Source: an uncultured Kordia sp.
GTDB lineage: Bacteria; Bacteroidota; Bacteroidia; Flavobacteriales; Flavobacteriaceae
Length of the DNA: 64,000 nt
Direction: 5' to 3'
NCBI RefSeq assembly: GCF_947489565.1
Contig: NZ_CANLEA010000011.1
Span: 124,001 to 188,000, forward strand
Every line of letters starts with the position of its first letter. The stretch's first letter is position 1. The notes below the pieces were generated by a model. It saw nothing but the letters and a program-made list of their open reading frames with translations. It was not told the origin of the DNA and did no database searches. A program made the position numbers and the translations under genes. Of the stretch, positions 2,961 through 43,925 are shown in pieces.

Positions 2961-3884
2961 ATGATGGAAGAAAAATATGATGATACGTTCCTAGCAAGAT
3001 GGCTTGCCGACGATCTCACAGAAGAGGAAAAACTCCGTTTTGAAAATTCTGCTGAGCATCAGGACTATCTAAATATCATAGAAAGTGTAGACCTTATGGA
3101 AGCACCTTCTTTTGATAAGAAATCTGTGTTGACTTCAATTCAACAAAAACAACAATTACATACCCCTAAAGTCCGAAAACTACGCACTTCGTGGTTATAT
3201 ACTGCAGCGGCAGCTGTGGTGCTTTTATTTGTTGGTTTCTCATATATGTACTTAAATGCTGATGAAACTTTTGAGACAGGTTTTGGTGAGCAAATTACAG
3301 TAAACTTACCAGATGGTTCTGAAGTGATGCTTAATGCAAAAACAACACTGTCATTCAATGAAAACTCCTGGGATACGGATCGAACGGTTTCACTTGATGG
3401 AGAAGCGTATTTCAAAGTAAAAAAAGGAGAAAAATTTACAGTTGCTACAACTTCTGGAACTGTAGAAGTATTAGGAACTCAATTCAATGTTCTTACGCAT
3501 GATGACACTATTTTTGAAGTAAAATGTCACGAAGGAAAAGTTAAAGCAACATCAAAAGCACAAAAAACTGAAATATTAACACAAGGAAAAGCATTTTCTT
3601 CTATTGAAGGAAAAACTAGTTCTTGGAGCTTCAATACAAACGAACCTAGCTGGAGAAATGACGAAAGCAATTTTAGGGAAATGCCTATAAAATATGTGAT
3701 TGAAGCATTACAAGATCAATACGAAGTACAATTTATTTTCGAAAATATAAGCACTACAGAACGTTTTACGGGAACTTTTTCACACAACAATTTAAAACTT
3801 GCGTTGCGAACAGTTTTTGATCCTATGGAAATTTCATATACTTTTAAGGGCGAAAAAACGGTTATACTCAGAGAAGCGAAATAA
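2961..3884 (+). CDS. FecR-family anti-sigma factor (FecR and DUF4974 domains)
   Basis: A 307-residue inner-membrane protein. The cytoplasmic N-terminus (1-75) contains the RWLADDLT pattern typical of sigma-binding FecR proteins in Bacteroidota. A single transmembrane helix spans about 77-98, a FecR domain lies at about 107-200 (PDGSEVMLNAKTTL onward), and a DUF4974 domain at about 235-305. It should hold the neighbouring ECF sigma factor and release it on a signal from the STN domain of the TonB receptor. Two adjacent ATG codons (2961 and 2964) could both serve as start. The receptor gene begins 57 bp downstream. Confidence 0.92.
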   Translation: MMEEKYDDTFLARWLADDLTEEEKLRFENSAEHQDYLNIIESVDLMEAPSFDKKSVLTSIQQKQQLHTPKVRKLRTSWLYTAAAAVVLLFVGFSYMYLNADETFETGFGEQITVNLPDGSEVMLNAKTTLSFNENSWDTDRTVSLDGEAYFKVKKGEKFTVATTSGTVEVLGTQFNVLTHDDTIFEVKCHEGKVKATSKAQKTEILTQGKAFSSIEGKTSSWSFNTNEPSWRNDESNFREMPIKYVIEALQDQYEVQFIFENISTTERFTGTFSHNNLKLALRTVFDPMEISYTFKGEKTVILREAK

Positions 3885-3941
3885 GAACCTGTCCTTTTTA
3901 CAAAATAAGGATTCGCGAAATGAAGTTTTACAGTTACGTTT

Positions 3942-6542
3942 ATGAGAAGTGTTTTAAGTGTTGTCTTTCTGTTCATCACCTGTTCATTGTTAGCCCAAAA
4001 CAATGGGTCGTTCTCTTTTGAAAAAGAACCACTGAAAAACGTACTTACCGAGGTAGAAGAAGCCTACGATATAAAGTTTTCTTATAAAGCAGAACTTGCC
4101 GAAAATAAAACCATTACATTCACTTTAAAAGAAGTTACCTTAAACACTGTTATTCAGCGTATACAAAAACAAGTACCTATAGTTTTTGAAAAAGTAAATC
4201 ATCGATTTTATATCATCCGAAGTCAAACGCAAGAAGGAAAAATACGAGTTTGTGGTGTTTTGGTCGATGCCAAAAGTCAACTACCAATTGTAGAAGCTTC
4301 AGCAGTCAATATTTCACAAAAAAAAGGAACTGTAACCAATGCAAACGGAAAGTTTGAATTGTTCTTAGCATTTCCAACAGATACCATAGAACTACGTTTC
4401 CTAGGATATAAAACACAACGCCTAACAGCTCAAGAGTTGCAAAAAGATCCGTGTGAAACCATTTTAATGGAAGCAGGTCAGTTTGATCTAGGTACGGTTT
4501 TAATTAGCAACTATCTTACTTCAGGAATCAATAAAAATAACGACGGAGCTTTGTCTCTTTCTCCTTCAAAACTAGGAATACTTCCAGGGTTAACTGAGCC
4601 AGATGTATTACAAAGTATTCAACTATTACCGGGAATTCAAAGTCCAAATGAAACTGCTTCAGGACTCTTTATTCGTGGTGGAACGCCCGATCAAAACTTA
4701 ATTTTGTGGGATGGAATAAAAATGTATCATTCAGGGCACTTTTTTGGGCTAATATCTGCGTTTAATCCGTATGTAATAGAAGAAGTTTCTGTGTACAAAA
4801 GCGGAACTGAAACCCGTTATGGCGATCGTATTTCAGGAGTTATCGACATTCAAACCGATACCAAAGTGCCAGAAAAACTATCAGGAGGATTCGGATTTAA
4901 TATGACGCATGCTGATGCGTATTTAAAAGTACCAATTACTAAAAACCTTGGTGTAATGGTTTCTGCACGTAGAGCATTTACAGATATCTGGGAAACATTT
5001 ACGTATAATAACTTTTCAGATCGTGTATTTCAGAATACGAAAATTACCAAGAGCTCCGAAATTGTAGAAGATGTATTTTCAGAAACAGAAAATAAATTCT
5101 TTTTTACGGATTATACCATAAAACTGATTGCAAAACTCTCAGATAAAGACGAAATCACAGTAAGTAACCTACGTACAAAAAATGAACTCGACTTTATGTC
5201 TGAAGTAGATCTTTTTGAAGAAACCTCCAGAGACCAACTAAGCATAAACAATGATGGTATAAGTGGATTTTGGAAACGACAATGGAATCCTAACTTTTCG
5301 CATACTTTTGATGCGTATTATTCACGATTTGATTTTGACTACTTAGGAACATTTCGAGGCAATATTGTAGGCGCTACAGAACAAGATCAAAAACGAAACA
5401 AAATCAAAGACATTGGGTTTTTATACAATACCGATTGGAAAATAGATGAAAAACGTAGTTTACAATCAGGATATCAATTCTCTTCTAATGAAGTCTCTTT
5501 TGGTTTCTCTGGCTTTAGTGGTACCGAAGAAGGAGTAGAAACGTATAATGTAGGAGAAGAAAGTATTAACAATTCGCATGCACTATTTACGTCGTTTAAA
5601 TACAATAATAAAAATGAGTTGATCATTAACGCAGGTTTGCGAATGAATTATTTTAGTACCGTAGATGCTGCATTCTTTGAACCAAGACTCTATATAGAGA
5701 AAAAATTAAATGATGCTTTTAGTATCAATTTTTCAGGAGAATTAAGACACCAAGCGGTAAGTCAAATATTAGAATTTAATACGATAAACTTCGGATTGGA
5801 AAACCAAGTGTGGGCTCTTGCAAACGGAAATGAATTTCCAGTATTAAAAAGTAGGCAAGTTTCTGCTGGAGTTTTATTCAGCAAAAATGGTTGGCGTATT
5901 GACTTAGATGCCTACCAAAAAAATATTACAGGACTAACATCATTAAACAGAAGTTTTGGTAACACAAGTGTTTTAGAAACCTTTACTGAAGGGAATAGCA
6001 AAATATATGGAGTGGATGTATTGATTGAAAAGAAGGTCAATGATTACCAAACGTGGATGAGTTATTCATTCACAGAAAATGACTTTGAATTTTCACGTAT
6101 CAATAACGGACTATCATTTTCTGGGAATTATGACATTCGTCACTACTTTCGTTGGGCACATTCGTACACCATAAACAACTTTAAATTCTCTCTTGGATGG
6201 AATTACCGAACAGGAACGCCATACACGCCTGTAACGTCTCAAACACAGCCTAACGGTAACTTATTCGTCTTTATTGGAGAAACGAACAGTACGCGCATCC
6301 CAGACTATCATCGTTTGGATTTTTCAGGGACGTATACATTTGATTTTGACAAAAAGAACAATTGGAAAGGAAAAATAGGGTTTTCGTTACTCAATATCTA
6401 CAATCGTAATAACTTGTTAGAACGTTATTATGAAATCAGACCGTTCCTAAACCAAGAAAACAATGTGCAATTTCGTTTAGAAACGGTTGATAAATTCTCT
6501 TTAGGAATGACTCCTAATTTAGTATTTAGAGTGGATTTCTAA
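3942..6542 (+). CDS. TonB-dependent receptor with STN signalling domain
   Basis: An 866-residue outer-membrane receptor. It has a signal peptide (1-19), a secretin/TonB short N-terminal (STN) domain (about 22-95), a carboxypeptidase-regulatory-like beta-sandwich (about 100-180), a plug (about 195-305, with the conserved LFIRGGTPDQNLILWDGI segment) and a 22-strand-type barrel to the end. The STN domain links ligand binding to the FecR protein encoded just upstream. No SusD partner follows, so it is not a classical glycan utilisation pair; the ligand could be a siderophore, peptide or other molecule. The stop codon overlaps by 4 bp the end of a convergent peptide gene, and no terminator is visible there. 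Confidence 0.9.
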   Translation: MRSVLSVVFLFITCSLLAQNNGSFSFEKEPLKNVLTEVEEAYDIKFSYKAELAENKTITFTLKEVTLNTVIQRIQKQVPIVFEKVNHRFYIIRSQTQEGKIRVCGVLVDAKSQLPIVEASAVNISQKKGTVTNANGKFELFLAFPTDTIELRFLGYKTQRLTAQELQKDPCETILMEAGQFDLGTVLISNYLTSGINKNNDGALSLSPSKLGILPGLTEPDVLQSIQLLPGIQSPNETASGLFIRGGTPDQNLILWDGIKMYHSGHFFGLISAFNPYVIEEVSVYKSGTETRYGDRISGVIDIQTDTKVPEKLSGGFGFNMTHADAYLKVPITKNLGVMVSARRAFTDIWETFTYNNFSDRVFQNTKITKSSEIVEDVFSETENKFFFTDYTIKLIAKLSDKDEITVSNLRTKNELDFMSEVDLFEETSRDQLSINNDGISGFWKRQWNPNFSHTFDAYYSRFDFDYLGTFRGNIVGATEQDQKRNKIKDIGFLYNTDWKIDEKRSLQSGYQFSSNEVSFGFSGFSGTEEGVETYNVGEESINNSHALFTSFKYNNKNELIINAGLRMNYFSTVDAAFFEPRLYIEKKLNDAFSINFSGELRHQAVSQILEFNTINFGLENQVWALANGNEFPVLKSRQVSAGVLFSKNGWRIDLDAYQKNITGLTSLNRSFGNTSVLETFTEGNSKIYGVDVLIEKKVNDYQTWMSYSFTENDFEFSRINNGLSFSGNYDIRHYFRWAHSYTINNFKFSLGWNYRTGTPYTPVTSQTQPNGNLFVFIGETNSTRIPDYHRLDFSGTYTFDFDKKNNWKGKIGFSLLNIYNRNNLLERYYEIRPFLNQENNVQFRLETVDKFSLGMTPNLVFRVDF

Positions 6543-15798: not shown

Positions 15799-16878
15799 TT
15801 AAGGTCGCAATGCAACTTTAAGAGTTCCTGATGAACGGTCACGCATTAAATTATAGCCTTTTTCTGCTTCTGATAAGGGTAAAATATCAGTAAAAATTGC
15901 ACTAGGATCAATAACACCTCTTTCTACCAATGGAAGTAATTTTTTTACATATGCAGCTACATTTACAACACCTGTATGAATCGTAATATTTCTAAACAAG
16001 GCTGATGAATACGGTTGCTCAACAGGTTCATAAAGATGCCCAAATCCTAAAACACTGATCGATGCGCCCGCCTGAGTCATTTCCATACCTTGTGCAATTG
16101 CTATTTTATTACCAACAGTGTCAATCACAGAATTTGCGCCTCGTCCGTCAGTGAGCGATTTTACAAATTCTACAGGATCTTCATTTTTTGAATTCACTAC
16201 ATGTGTTGCTCCAACCGTTTTTGCTAATTCCAATCGGCTTTCATGACGTCCTACAAGAATAATAGTAGATGGGCCAAATAATGTAGCAGCCATTACCGCA
16301 CTTTGACCTACTGCACCATCACCAATAACAACTACAGTTTCTCCAGTCTTAATATTGGCATTTAATGCACCATGATATCCTGTTGCAAAATTGTCTCCTA
16401 ATGGAAGCACTTTTGTATCGTGCTCATCGCCACTTAAACCTTCAGGAAGCTTAAATAGTGACGTATTACCATAAGGAACACGTATAAATTCAGATTGACC
16501 TCCTTGAATATCGTCACCTCCATGCTCAGCAAATAATGGCGTACCAAACAAACCTCCATGTTCGCATGCCGAATGTAAATCACGTTTACAGTAATGACAT
16601 TCTCCATCAATAAACATGGCGGAAGCTACCACACGATCTCCAACTTTTAAACTATGAATATCTTTCCCTACTTGGTCTACAACACCCACAAATTCATGTC
16701 CTATTCGCATGCCTTTAAATAAACCCATTTCAGGTCCGTTTTGGGTAAATTCTAAATCTGCTCCGCAAATACCTGCAAGTGTAATGCGTACAATAACATC
16801 ATCATCTTTTACTAATTGTGGCTTTGGTATATCCACGACTTCAATTTTTGCTCGTTCTTTATAAACTACTGCTTTCAT
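15799..16878 (-). CDS. Zinc-dependent alcohol dehydrogenase (MDR superfamily)
   Basis: A 359-residue enzyme with the MDR layout. Catalytic zinc ligands are Cys38 and His61-Glu62. A structural-zinc lobe at 94-105 has only three Cys (94, 97 and 105); the fourth position is Asp100. The nucleotide-binding GDGAVG motif lies at 186-191. It should oxidise or reduce an alcohol/aldehyde with NAD(P); the substrate cannot be told. It is transcribed leftward from its own promoter. That promoter region is a near-copy of the one before the ZIP gene and carries a perfect TTGAT-N4-ATCAA site. Regulation by the nearby Crp/Fnr-type protein is therefore likely. Confidence 0.88.
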   Translation of the reverse strand: MKAVVYKERAKIEVVDIPKPQLVKDDDVIVRITLAGICGADLEFTQNGPEMGLFKGMRIGHEFVGVVDQVGKDIHSLKVGDRVVASAMFIDGECHYCKRDLHSACEHGGLFGTPLFAEHGGDDIQGGQSEFIRVPYGNTSLFKLPEGLSGDEHDTKVLPLGDNFATGYHGALNANIKTGETVVVIGDGAVGQSAVMAATLFGPSTIILVGRHESRLELAKTVGATHVVNSKNEDPVEFVKSLTDGRGANSVIDTVGNKIAIAQGMEMTQAGASISVLGFGHLYEPVEQPYSSALFRNITIHTGVVNVAAYVKKLLPLVERGVIDPSAIFTDILPLSEAEKGYNLMRDRSSGTLKVALRP

Positions 16879-16947
16879 ATATTTTAATTTTTTTGTTTTT
16901 AATAAGATTAAGGTTTAGTTGAACACAACTATTTGTTACTTAATACT

Positions 16948-17019
16948 ATGGCAAAGTTGGGTTAGATTTAAAGAGATTAAAATGACTAGTGTTAAGAAAA
17001 AAGCTTGATCTATATCAAG
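16948..17019 (-). repeat. Promoter-region copy A (upstream of alcohol dehydrogenase)
   Basis: This 72-bp segment aligns without gaps to 17803-17874 at 59 of 72 positions by my count. Matches cluster at the two ends: the CAACTTTG -7-like element and the 16-bp palindrome. It is a duplicated regulatory region, not part of a coding duplication, since the genes behind the two copies are unrelated. Confidence 0.85.
17004..17019 (-). promoter_or_regulatory. FNR/CRP-type operator, site 1
   Basis: CTTGATCTATATCAAG contains the exact FNR-type consensus TTGAT-N4-ATCAA. Its centre lies 59.5 bp upstream of the end of the CAACTTTG -7-like element (16952-16959, minus strand). That puts the site near -60 to -64 relative to the likely transcription start, a normal activator position. 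The -7-like element differs from TAnnTTTG at its first base, as expected for an activator-dependent promoter. Confidence 0.8.
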
Positions 17020-17032
17020 TTTTTGAAGACAT

Positions 17033-17707
17033 TTAGATAAAATGAGCAACGGAAACACCCAAACAGATCACTACTAGTTTTGATACATTGAACGTATGAC
17101 CTTCACCAGTTTCAAAGAGAATAGTTGTCGCAATATGTAAAAAAATACCAATCACAACGGCATTCACAATATCTATATATTCGGTTGCCAAAACAGTATT
17201 GTTAGATATGTAAGTACCTAAAGGTGTCATTATAGCAAATACGACCAAGAAACCAATAATTTGAACTTTGCTATAGCTAGATTGAAACAAAAATGTAGTT
17301 ATCAATGCCGCTATCGGAATTTTATGAATCAATACACCATACACCATGTCATTATGTTGATGAATAGGAAATCCTTCAAAAAAACTATGAATACAAAGAC
17401 TTATAAATAGTATCCACGGAAACTCATTTCCTTCTGTATGTGTATGCACATGACCATGCTCAACACCTTTAGATAAAAATTCTAAAATAATTTGCAATAA
17501 GATTCCGCACATGATAAAAAGTCCCGTTTGCTTGGCTTCTAAATGATGATACACTTCTGGCAATAAATCAAAAAGTGTTAGTGCTAATAAAAATGCACCA
17601 CTAAACGATAACAATAGCTTAGTGCCTATTGATTTTTGTTTTCTGGTGATCAAAGCAATCATAACACCTATAACGATGGCAATAACTGGAAGTAAATACT
17701 TATTCAT
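17033..17707 (-). CDS. ZIP-family metal transporter
   Basis: A 224-residue protein with about seven to eight hydrophobic helices. The two ZIP signature helices are visible: HSFFEG (107-112) and HKIP (128-131), whose His and Glu residues form the binuclear metal site. A His-rich cytoplasmic loop (HGHVHTH, 84-90) precedes them. It likely moves Zn2+ or another divalent metal into the cytoplasm. The promoter region is a near-copy of that of the zinc alcohol dehydrogenase gene next to it, so both genes should respond to the same signal. A metal importer beside a zinc enzyme may be a functional pairing, but that is inference. Confidence 0.88.
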   Translation of the reverse strand: MNKYLLPVIAIVIGVMIALITRKQKSIGTKLLLSFSGAFLLALTLFDLLPEVYHHLEAKQTGLFIMCGILLQIILEFLSKGVEHGHVHTHTEGNEFPWILFISLCIHSFFEGFPIHQHNDMVYGVLIHKIPIAALITTFLFQSSYSKVQIIGFLVVFAIMTPLGTYISNNTVLATEYIDIVNAVVIGIFLHIATTILFETGEGHTFNVSKLVVICLGVSVAHFI

Positions 17708-17802
17708 GACAATATTAATTGGGTTCTTTTTTTAAAGAATCAGGTTTGGTTGTATTGCACTGATGTTCAAATACACCTTACACTGATTTGTCAATTATTA
17801 AC

Positions 17803-17874
17803 ATGGCAAAGTTGCATCATATATGAAGAGATTTATATGACGTGTGGTAAGAAAAACGCTTGATCTGTATCAAG
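17803..17874 (-). repeat. Promoter-region copy B (upstream of ZIP transporter)
   Basis: This is the partner of 16948-17019, aligning without gaps at 59 of 72 positions. It contains CAACTTTG at 17807-17814 (minus strand) and a perfect FNR-type palindrome at 17859-17874. The 59.5-bp distance between these two elements is identical in both copies. Confidence 0.85.
17859..17874 (-). promoter_or_regulatory. FNR/CRP-type operator, site 2
   Basis: CTTGATCTGTATCAAG matches TTGAT-N4-ATCAA exactly. It differs from site 1 at one central base. It lies upstream of the ZIP gene at the same distance from the -7-like element as site 1. Confidence 0.8.
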
Positions 17875-17882
17875 AAGTAAAA

Positions 17883-17896
17883 TTGATTTGAATCAA
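17883..17896 (-). promoter_or_regulatory. FNR/CRP-type operator, site 3
   Basis: TTGATTTGAATCAA is a third exact TTGAT-N4-ATCAA match. It is centred 23 bp upstream of site 2 (about two helical turns) and lies 8 bp before the stop codon of the Crp/Fnr-type gene. It may add cooperative binding at the ZIP promoter. Confidence 0.7.
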
Positions 17897-17904
17897 CTTT
17901 TTAG

Positions 17905-18480
17905 CTATGAACGCGAACGGATTCTACTTAATGACTCTGGAGAAATTCCTAAATACGATGCTAAGACATACTGCGGAATTCTATTTGCAATTTCAGGATA
18001 TTTAGTAACATATTCCCAATAGCGTTCTTCTGAAGTTTTACTAATATTAGAAACAATTCTTTGATGAGCATAGGAGAACGCTTTTTCCGTGATGTATCTA
18101 AAATATTGACATATCGGATGTATTTTAGAACAGATTTCTTCAACATCTTCATATTTCATTTGCAGGATGATAGAATCTTCAAGTGCTTCCGCAAAATATT
18201 TTGCAGGAGTTCTATGTACATAACTATAAAAGTCTGAAAAAAACCAATCTTCAATACCAATAATTATCGTATGCTCTTTTCCAAGATCATCCAAATAAAA
18301 AACTCTGACTGAACCTTTTACTATATAGTTTTGATATTCTGATACAAATCCAGGTTGAATCACAAATTGCCTTTTCTTTATTCTTGTCGTTTTTAATATT
18401 GAAGTAAACTGCGTTATTTCATCATCTGTTAACTCAACATATCTGGCTATGTTATTCAATATTCCTTTGTATTTGCTCAT
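17905..18480 (-). CDS. Crp/Fnr family transcriptional regulator
   Basis: A 191-residue protein. The N-terminal half (about 15-120) is a cyclic-nucleotide-binding-type jelly roll. The C-terminus is a winged helix ending in the recognition helix SPESLSRIR. Glu182, Ser185 and Arg186 reproduce the E-x2-S-R pattern of E. coli FNR (Glu209, Ser212, Arg213), which reads TTGAT half-sites. There is no N-terminal Cys cluster, so oxygen sensing through an FNR-type Fe-S cluster is unlikely; the ligand is unknown. The gene sits directly upstream of the ZIP and alcohol dehydrogenase genes, whose promoters carry TTGAT-N4-ATCAA sites. It is probably their regulator. Confidence 0.88.
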   Translation of the reverse strand: MSKYKGILNNIARYVELTDDEITQFTSILKTTRIKKRQFVIQPGFVSEYQNYIVKGSVRVFYLDDLGKEHTIIIGIEDWFFSDFYSYVHRTPAKYFAEALEDSIILQMKYEDVEEICSKIHPICQYFRYITEKAFSYAHQRIVSNISKTSEERYWEYVTKYPEIANRIPQYVLASYLGISPESLSRIRSRS

Positions 18481-42719: not shown

Positions 42720-43925
42720 ATGGGAAGTAACAAACCAAGTGTTGTGATGGTAGGTCTAGGATATATTGGACTTCCTACCGCAGCGTTAATTGCAAGTAGA
42801 GAAATTAAAGTAACAGGAGTTGATATTCATCAACATGTTGTAGATACAATAAACAAAGGAGAAATCCACATCGTAGAACCAGACTTAGATGGTTTGGTAC
42901 ACAAAGTAGTAAAAGATGGATACCTAACAGCAAGTACATCGCCAGTAGAAGCAGATGTATATTTAATTGCTGTGCCAACACCATTTAAAGGCGATTATGA
43001 GCCAGATATCTCATACGTAGAATCAGCAACAAGAGCTTTATTACCAACGTTAAAAGAAGGTGCATTGGTTATTGTAGAATCTACAAGTCCTGTAGGAACT
43101 ACTGAAAAAATGCAAGCAGTTATTGAAGCTGAACGTCCAGAATTGATTGGAAAAATATACATGGCATACTGTCCAGAACGTGTATTGCCAGGAAATGTAA
43201 TTTACGAATTAGAGCACAACGATAGAGCTATTGGTGGAATCAACCCTGAGTCTACTGAAAAAGCAGTTGAATTTTACAGACACTTTGTAAAAGGAACCTT
43301 GCACAAAACCAACTCTAGAACAGCAGAAATGTGTAAGTTGGTTGAAAACTCATCAAGAGACGTTCAAATTGCCTTTGCAAATGAGCTTTCTATGATTTGT
43401 GATGAAGCAGAAATCAATGTTTGGGAATTGATCAACTTAGCCAACAAGCATCCGCGTGTAAACATTTTACAACCGGGAACAGGAGTTGGTGGACACTGTA
43501 TCGCAGTAGATCCATGGTTTATTGTTTCTGAATTTCCAGAGCAAGCGAAAATCATTCGTTCGGCAAGAGAAATCAACAATTACAAAACAGAATGGGCTAT
43601 TGAAAAAGTAAAAAGTACGGCGTTACAATTTAAGATAGACAATGGTAGAGACGCTAAAATCGCTTGTATGGGATTGGCTTTCAAACCAAATATTGACGAT
43701 TTACGTGAATCTCCAGCATTACAAGTAGTAGCTACTTTAGTAAATGATGGTTTCAACGTATTGGCAGTTGAGCCAAATATTAAGTCGCACAACAAATATG
43801 AAATTTACGATAGGGAAGATGCTATAGAACAAGCAGATATTATTGTATATTTGGTTGCGCATAGAGAGTTTGCTAATTCTGAAAGAGTAAAGCAAACACT
43901 AGATTTTTGTGGAATTTATAAATAA
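42720..43925 (+). CDS. wecC: UDP-N-acetyl-D-mannosamine dehydrogenase
   Basis: A 401-residue nucleotide-sugar dehydrogenase with GLGYIGLPTA (12-21), CPERVLPGN (151-159) and the catalytic Cys260 in GVGGHCIAVDPWF. The PERVLPG segment is typical of the WecC/UDP-ManNAc group and differs from the neighbouring TviB-type enzyme. It oxidises UDP-ManNAc to UDP-ManNAcA. It forms a tight pair with wecB. Confidence 0.95.
   Translation: MGSNKPSVVMVGLGYIGLPTAALIASREIKVTGVDIHQHVVDTINKGEIHIVEPDLDGLVHKVVKDGYLTASTSPVEADVYLIAVPTPFKGDYEPDISYVESATRALLPTLKEGALVIVESTSPVGTTEKMQAVIEAERPELIGKIYMAYCPERVLPGNVIYELEHNDRAIGGINPESTEKAVEFYRHFVKGTLHKTNSRTAEMCKLVENSSRDVQIAFANELSMICDEAEINVWELINLANKHPRVNILQPGTGVGGHCIAVDPWFIVSEFPEQAKIIRSAREINNYKTEWAIEKVKSTALQFKIDNGRDAKIACMGLAFKPNIDDLRESPALQVVATLVNDGFNVLAVEPNIKSHNKYEIYDREDAIEQADIIVYLVAHREFANSERVKQTLDFCGIYK

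Follow-up and report, generated by a model that had tools for sequence, protein, structure and literature searches.

The window analysed here, a stretch of 64,000 nucleotides from an uncultured Kordia sp., contains two neighbouring genes of unrelated kinds that are preceded by almost the same promoter. This raises the question of why the two genes share it, and which protein reads the palindromic sites it contains.

Genes of the locus

Three genes, all on the minus strand, form the locus. The first (17905..18480) encodes a CRP/Fnr-type regulator of 191 aa with the recognition helix SPESLSR. Its N-terminal cNMP-binding-type domain (PF00027, 30.9 bits, cut-off 27.5) assigns it to the CRP/FNR superfamily. 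No HTH family model matched its C-terminal region, where the helix PESLSR is present and alignment with 3dn7 is seen; the latter is the best solved relative of the regulator (E 2e-35, residues 5-190). The second gene (17033..17707) encodes a ZIP-family metal transporter of 224 aa (PF02535, 58.8 bits, cut-off 35.1) and the third (15799..16878) an MDR-family zinc-type alcohol dehydrogenase of 359 aa, in which both PF08240 (ADH_N) and PF00107 (ADH_zinc_N) score above their cut-offs. Compared with the NCBIfam models, the dehydrogenase reached no cut-off, the best match being the L-threonine dehydrogenase model (155.8 against 380).

The palindromes had been called FNR-type in the preliminary description of this DNA. 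Taken as oxygen sensing, the term does not fit the adjoining regulator. The entire protein contains two cysteines, so that the set of four which holds the 4Fe-4S cluster of FNR is absent, and it scores 19.5 bits against the NCBIfam Fnr model, where the cut-off is 228; an oxygen-sensing FNR was rejected on these two grounds. The score against the NCBIfam CRP equivalog is 21.9 bits (cut-off 266). Judged by its sequence, the regulator is therefore neither an FNR, given its cysteines, nor a CRP, given its family score. One of its cysteines, Cys117, is shared by 25 of the 26 relatives with at least 44% identity.

Architecture of the two promoters

The regions 16948-17019 and 17803-17874 are identical at 59 of 72 positions without gaps, exactly as described earlier. 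The three exact TTGAT-N4-ATCAA palindromes reported with them, at 17005-17018, 17860-17873 and 17883-17896, were verified as well; two lie between the regulator and the ZIP gene and one between the ZIP gene and the dehydrogenase gene. The window contains a fourth exact match at 42820 (four against 0.46 expected), and the whole genome of 6.42 Mb contains 60, the 14-mer by itself being not rare. A palindrome followed by AACTTTG 35-60 bp on is found only at the two window places in the genome, and the reversed-pattern control gave none. The spacing of 59.5 bp given previously is correct in both promoters when measured between the centre of the palindrome and the far end of CAACTTTG, and the first T of TTTG is reached after 56.5 bp. 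Between palindrome and CAACTTTG, 33 of the 45 spacer positions match.

The ZIP promoter contains the fuller set of sites. Its distal dyad TTGATTCAAATCAA (17883..17896, an exact palindrome, unstranded) is located 8 bp past the regulator stop codon, with its centre at a predicted -87.5. The proximal dyad TTGATACAGATCAA (17860..17873, exact, unstranded) has its centre at a predicted -64.5, and a degenerate half-site TTACCACACGTCAT (17837..17850, minus strand) occupies the -41.5 register 23 bp from it. The -7 box CAACTTTG follows at 17807..17814 (minus strand), its TTTG lying 56.5 bp from the proximal dyad centre. The dehydrogenase promoter is without the distal dyad and consists of the proximal dyad TTGATATAGATCAA (17005..17018, exact, unstranded; predicted centre -64.5), the degenerate half-site TTAACACTAGTCAT (16982..16995, minus strand) in the -41.5 register and the -7 box CAACTTTG (16952..16959, minus strand), the span of the box being taken from the available part of PMC9723704. 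From these boxes, transcription is predicted to start near 17802 for the ZIP gene and near 16947 for the dehydrogenase gene.

The step from distal to proximal dyad is thus 23 bp, and a half-site of the form TTAacACAnnTCAT stands another 23 bp on. The half-sites do not figure in the preliminary description; within them, ACAnnTCAT is conserved in at least 80% of the 15 promoters compared. In the window, only a half-site occupies the place of a class II dyad at -41.5, a register that is itself predicted from the -7 box, and both boxes CAACTTTG are without the TA of the TAnnTTTG consensus. Among the loci examined, the array of the window cassette is the fullest, with two dyads and one half-site.

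A further dyad, TGTTAATAATTGACA (17789..17803, minus strand), lies over the predicted ZIP start; its pattern has one match in the genome, and the reversed-pattern control also one. A start-site dyad of the type TGTCAATAATTGACA is exact in seven of ten loci of the regulator's own clade (L123, L124, L125, L013, L018, L020 and L024) and near-exact in the window ZIP promoter. The related TGTCAATATTGACA is seen behind the sister regulators L157, L139 and L142, whose upstream operators differ. A different protein may recognise the start-site dyad.

The same promoter in other genera

A scan of named genomes with the ZIP protein yielded 80 loci. Eight of these hold the regulator (75-82% identity), and all eight also hold the dehydrogenase; Dokdonia, Aquimarina, Psychroserpens, Croceitalea, Allomuricauda and Winogradskyella are among them. 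Three more loci (L014, L022 and L048) carry the dehydrogenase without the regulator in the DNA covered, the dehydrogenase of L014 being cut by the locus start, and in L019 the locus covers just the first 75 dehydrogenase residues. Across the 11 loci in which it stands beside the ZIP gene, the dehydrogenase is 91-95% identical. Set against the 75-82% of the regulator, this is an unusual degree of conservation for several genera, and it may reflect either strong constraint or transfer.

Gene order is variable among the eight loci. Five have the regulator, the dehydrogenase, a Lumazine_bd_2 gene and the ZIP gene in this order (Pfam names of neighbour genes are taken from cluster members), and L012 has the same order without the Lumazine_bd_2 gene. 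In L021 the regulator is followed by a peroxiredoxin-cluster gene, another gene, the dehydrogenase and the ZIP gene, while in L019 the ZIP gene comes first and is followed by the regulator, a peroxiredoxin-cluster gene, another gene and the dehydrogenase. The two-dyad array is present behind the regulator in all eight. It begins 2-7 bp past the stop codon in seven loci and about 116 bp past it in L019. In the own clade, the distal dyad keeps its register (predicted -87.5) in 10 of 10 scored loci.

Searched strictly, the two-dyad array occurs in four of 397 family genomes, at one place in each, and reversed-pattern controls gave none. These four are exactly the genomes with a regulator of at least 75% identity, the next best having 70%. 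Since the loci are orthologous, this co-occurrence is best read from the sequences as linkage of one orthologous locus and not as four independent events. The palindrome with AACTTTG is found in eight of 59 other genomes. Three of these eight belong to the ten examined from the genus of the window strain; each has a single match, the spacers are unlike, and the remaining seven congeneric genomes gave no match. Taken together, the comparison indicates that several Flavobacteriaceae genera share a conserved promoter placed behind an orthologous regulator, and that the dehydrogenase and ZIP genes are likewise found in its vicinity.

The preliminary description had taken the two window promoters for a local duplication. 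Over 96 aligned positions the two copies share 74 with each other, and 76 and 80 with the peroxiredoxin promoter of Aquimarina aggregata (L019). Because the copies are no closer to each other than to this promoter, a recent local duplication seems unlikely from the alignment.

Three observations were made alongside. L019 contains a second copy of the promoter (3701-4000) before its separate ZIP gene, after what appears by eye to be a decayed regulator-gene tail, which would be consistent with joint copying of the promoter and the end of the gene. A ZIP protein of 66% identity is encoded on a small circular Pontimicrobium plasmid record (L011, NZ_CP157200.1, 6997 bp), which also carries peptidase E, serine hydrolase and hemolysin III family genes. 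Many Winogradskyella loci have palindromes some 234-243 bp ahead of the ZIP gene, which were considered as conserved sites and proved a false lead; in an alignment of 22 loci they lie inside a codon-like conserved stretch, by eye the end of an upstream gene.

Registers relative to the -7 box

We collected 97 related regulators together with the DNA behind their genes (99 before a length and identity filter, two being dropped for low identity). The sources were a search at E <=1e-40 and the loci reached via the ZIP gene, so that the own clade is over-represented; near-identical rows were dropped and five matches, on G328, G378, G393, G340 and G388, were left out. Candidate dyads were 14-mers of the form TTRA-N6-TYAA, chosen after viewing the rows, and were scored by match and symmetry to a maximum of 15. 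A score of at least 14 within 60 bp of the stop codon was reached by 49 of the 97 regulators, against a mean of 0.46 (maximum 2) in 50 sets of dinucleotide shuffles scored with the same form. The 76 regulators with a score of at least 13 were used for all counts of letters and registers, and in 17 of them the dyad overlaps the regulator stop codon. The 21 under 13 comprise L019, seven other ES-x-SR, six K-EFLSK, three EFLSK and three EFLS-x rows and one K-EFFSK row. L019 was missed by the scan as its array is too distant from the stop.

In 68 of these 76 loci, TTTG starts 33.5, 56.5 or 79.5 bp after the dyad centre. The counts at the three distances are 17, 42 and 11, and the other distances between 20 and 140 bp average 0.46 and never exceed 4. 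This supports the part of the earlier interpretation that places the sites ahead of the -7 box, at a distance that recurs. Most loci use a single register. Regulators with the helix K-EFLSK have it at 56.5 bp in 31 of 32 cases, and the own-clade distal dyads are at 79.5 bp in 10 of 10. The right half-site recurs at +23 bp in nine of 15 loci of the EFLSK type and in three of 32 K-EFLSK loci, the latter no more than at +28 and +29.

In Flavobacterium psychrophilum, mapped starts place the TAnnTTTG box between -12 and -5 (PMC9723704, in whose main text a term search gave no mention of Crp or Fnr). Applied to the TTTG distances, this mapped flavobacterial span would turn 33.5, 56.5 and 79.5 bp into registers of -41.5, -64.5 and -87.5. 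The first of these registers is where class II sites of CRP and FNR are centred in E. coli.

Operator letters and the recognition helix

The letters of the dyad behind the gene vary with the recognition helix of the regulator. In general ES-x-SR goes with TTGA(T/C), P/A-EFLSK with TTGAAC and K-EFLSK with TTAA(A/T)C, and exceptions exist. Among the scored loci, own-clade ES-x-SR regulators have TTGA[TC] in 10 of 10, and those of another ES-x-SR clade in eight of 10, the remaining two having TTAA. EFLSK-type regulators with P, A or T before the E have TTGAA in 13 of 15 (on one arm only in six of the 13) and TTAA in two. TTAA is present in all 32 K-EFLSK loci, in five of five with EFLS-A/T/V/Y and in the single K-EFLSR locus, and the three T-EFLSR loci have hybrid sites. 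Position 181 is E in 96 of the 97 regulators. The helix positions that change, which we tentatively take to be 180, 182 and 185 of CRP, go with letters 3 and 5 of the half-site. On this association, the adjoining CRP/Fnr-type gene with the matching helix, to which the preliminary description had pointed, is the likely reader of the window sites.

The other ES-x-SR subgroup appears to follow the letter rule only in part. At any score, the best site is of the G type in nearly half of its rows (8/17) and not in the other nine. Examined post hoc, an RTCAA half-site stands at the -41.5 register in 10 of the 17 (other offsets: mean 0.20, maximum 4); in three of these cases the facing half is TAACC or TAACA and not TTGA.

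A tree of the 97 rows was built by a quick method with the helix residues removed, SH-aLRT support and midpoint rooting. The own ES-x-SR clade (11 rows, support 99) groups with the EFLSK-type rows (20 rows, 99), and the other ES-x-SR clade (17 rows, 99) is placed apart from it. Within the 34 rows with TTGA-type sites, R as end residue and the letters TTGA[TC] change three times each, together in three of three independent pairs; with three pairs p is 0.25, too few for significance. The pairing of K before E with TTAA offered one change and a single pair, in which the operator moved in the same direction in 0.2 on average; nine of 43 rows without K also have TTAA. On this tree the K-before-E/TTAA part of the rule is not independently supported. 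The helix/operator covariation rests on few independent switches, of which three matched ones have been seen so far.

Paralogues in the same genome

CRP/Fnr-type proteins are numerous in flavobacteria, the window genome having 19 cNMP-binding matches (18 above the cut-off) with the window regulator included, and 18 (17 above the cut-off) besides it. Fifteen of these paralogues match a profile of the regulators and six of the 15 have a dyad behind their own gene according to a script (L167, L168, L239, two genes in L241, and L244), three of the dyads overlapping the stop codon. L169 and L246 have similar dyads by eye. A paralogue with the helix SQETLSR has the dyad TTGATCTAGATCAA behind its gene, one with TPETLSR has TTGATTTGAATCAA overlapping its stop codon, and one with TPEYLSE has CTTAAGATACCTTAAG behind its gene. 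The dyads of the SQETLSR and TPETLSR paralogues match the window palindromes and are placed at the -41.5 register.

Genome-wide, the -64.5 register is found at three places, two in the window and one inside an apparent response-regulator gene, and the -41.5 register at five, of which three are behind CRP/Fnr paralogues, one is in a coding frame and one is intergenic; as background, spacings of 10-40 give 62 matches over 31 spacings. The lone intergenic dyad (L251:1501-1544, C7:213339), in the -41.5 register, has no frame of at least 100 aa in its direction. Array and register may contribute as much as the letters to specificity between paralogues.

Proposed mechanism and alternatives

We consider it probable that the regulator is a dimeric CRP/Fnr-type activator of the promoter that immediately follows its own gene, working through phased dyads. 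The dimer would read TTGA(T/C)-N4-(A/G)TCAA dyads through its ES-x-SR helix, at full dyads near -87.5 and -64.5 and a half-site at -41.5 in steps of 23 bp in the ZIP promoter, and at a dyad at -64.5 and a half-site at -41.5 in the dehydrogenase promoter. Stacked along the DNA, it would recruit RNA polymerase to a promoter with the -7 box CAACTTTG. The array would be an old conserved promoter that has stayed with the regulator, dehydrogenase and ZIP genes through reshuffling, and the window strain would carry it before both target genes. Position, spacing, conservation and helix association can be read from the sequences, while binding by the regulator, activation rather than repression, and the start sites are inferred.

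Other explanations have to be weighed against this one. The sites could be bound in the cell mainly by one or more other CRP/Fnr paralogues, the linked regulator being one of many inputs. The 18 other cNMP-binding matches, 17 of them above the cut-off, speak for this, as do the paralogues at C5 and C15, each of which combines an ETLSR helix with an exact TTGATN4ATCAA dyad behind its gene; however, those dyads are at -41.5, and within the 397 genomes the phased array is confined to the four with the linked regulator, so we regard this explanation as rather unlikely. The same two paralogues bear on the self-contained regulon that had been proposed for this locus, which is likely and, with 18 other cNMP-binding matches and two ETLSR helices paired with the same palindrome, unproven. 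That the regulator acts as a repressor or in a dual manner, with the start-site dyad of the TGTCAATAATTGACA type as the main control and a second protein as its reader, would agree with the frequent exact copies of this dyad in the own clade, with the near-exact copy in the ZIP promoter and with the presence of TGTCAATATTGACA behind the sister regulators L157, L139 and L142. Yet the dyad is decayed in the dehydrogenase promoter, L012 and L021 and was not seen in the 31 K-EFLSK loci listed, and CRP/Fnr proteins bound at -41.5 or farther upstream act as activators, which makes this possibility unlikely. A recent duplication of the promoter in the window strain, without further meaning, draws on the 59/72 identity of the two copies and is very improbable given the occurrence of the same promoter in several genera and the equal or greater closeness of the copies to the L019 promoter.

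The signal sensed by the proposed activator is a matter of guesswork. A metal importer and a zinc enzyme had been suggested as the common theme, which the relatives do not support: in two of the eight related loci it is a peroxiredoxin-cluster gene that follows the regulator promoter, and peroxiredoxin and short-chain dehydrogenase genes adjoin sister regulators. The neighbourhoods of the kin contain AhpC-TSA, short-chain dehydrogenase, nitroreductase (in L014, before a ZIP gene with this promoter type), Lumazine_bd_2, polyketide-cyclase-type and DoxX-like genes (DoxX at 22.2 bits, below its cut-off of 23.6), and to judge from these annotations they look more like redox or electrophile defence than like a metal and zinc theme. 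Because the Fe-S cysteine set is absent, Cys117 is near-invariant and peroxiredoxin and dehydrogenase genes are neighbours of the kin, a thiol/redox or electrophile signal is our favoured guess. A zinc signal is possible, for which only the gene pair of the window speaks.

For the family as a whole, our opinion inclines slightly towards Flavobacteriaceae having many short CRP/Fnr-type regulators, each of which would serve mainly as a local switch for the promoter after its gene, with operators behind the stop codon in one of three registers (-41.5, -64.5 and -87.5, in steps of 23 bp) and letters that follow helix positions 180, 182 and 185 in a readable code.

Comparison with known systems

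Few flavobacterial transcription factors are known to have assigned targets. With the operator in a fixed position just after the gene, set distances to the -7 box and a rule linking helix and operator, targets could be assigned from sequence for many of these regulators. The covariation of helix and operator points to which protein may read which site and hints at a recognition code, and the family would offer matched protein/DNA pairs from nature on which changes of recognition-helix specificity could be examined. In the literature on Bacteroidota, with most subscription journals outside the scope, we found no description of this promoter, spacing or code, nor of the subfamily, of operators behind the regulator gene or of operator variation with position 185.

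The sites of FNR and DNR (TTGATnnnnATCAA and CTTGATnnnnATCAAG) have the same dyad as the window, and the regulator helix has the E-x-x-S-R residues of FNR. The DNR motif CTTGATnnnnATCAAG, as given in the available text of PMC1274295, fits both proximal window sites. Unlike FNR, the window regulator lacks the FNR cysteine set, and unlike DNR and NnrR, its sites have no denitrification or hcp genes among the neighbours identified in the window and in the kin loci. It differs from both FNR and DNR in being a protein of 191 aa with an array of 23-bp steps and likely one or two target promoters by its own gene. The solved structure 3dn7 (PDB, a cyclic nucleotide binding regulatory protein) is of similar length and aligned over residues 5-190; its helix is PEYLSE, unlike SPESLSR of the window.

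For LacI regulators, a recognition code of local regulation has been derived from regulators acting on their neighbourhood (PMC2978694, in the part available). The present regulators belong to another family, and here the operator comes after the regulator gene, overlapping its stop codon in the 17 of 76 loci mentioned above. A 2025 survey of the CRP/FNR DNA-binding domain reports, in its accessible portion, that the base contacts 180, 181 and 185 are conserved family-wide (PMC12531629). In HcpR, DNR and NnrR, CRP positions 180 and 181 correlate with motif bases 3 and 6 (PMC1274295, same text). The helix and operator pairs described here suggest the same principle of co-evolution, with position 181 a near-constant E and the changes falling at what we take for 180, 182 and 185.
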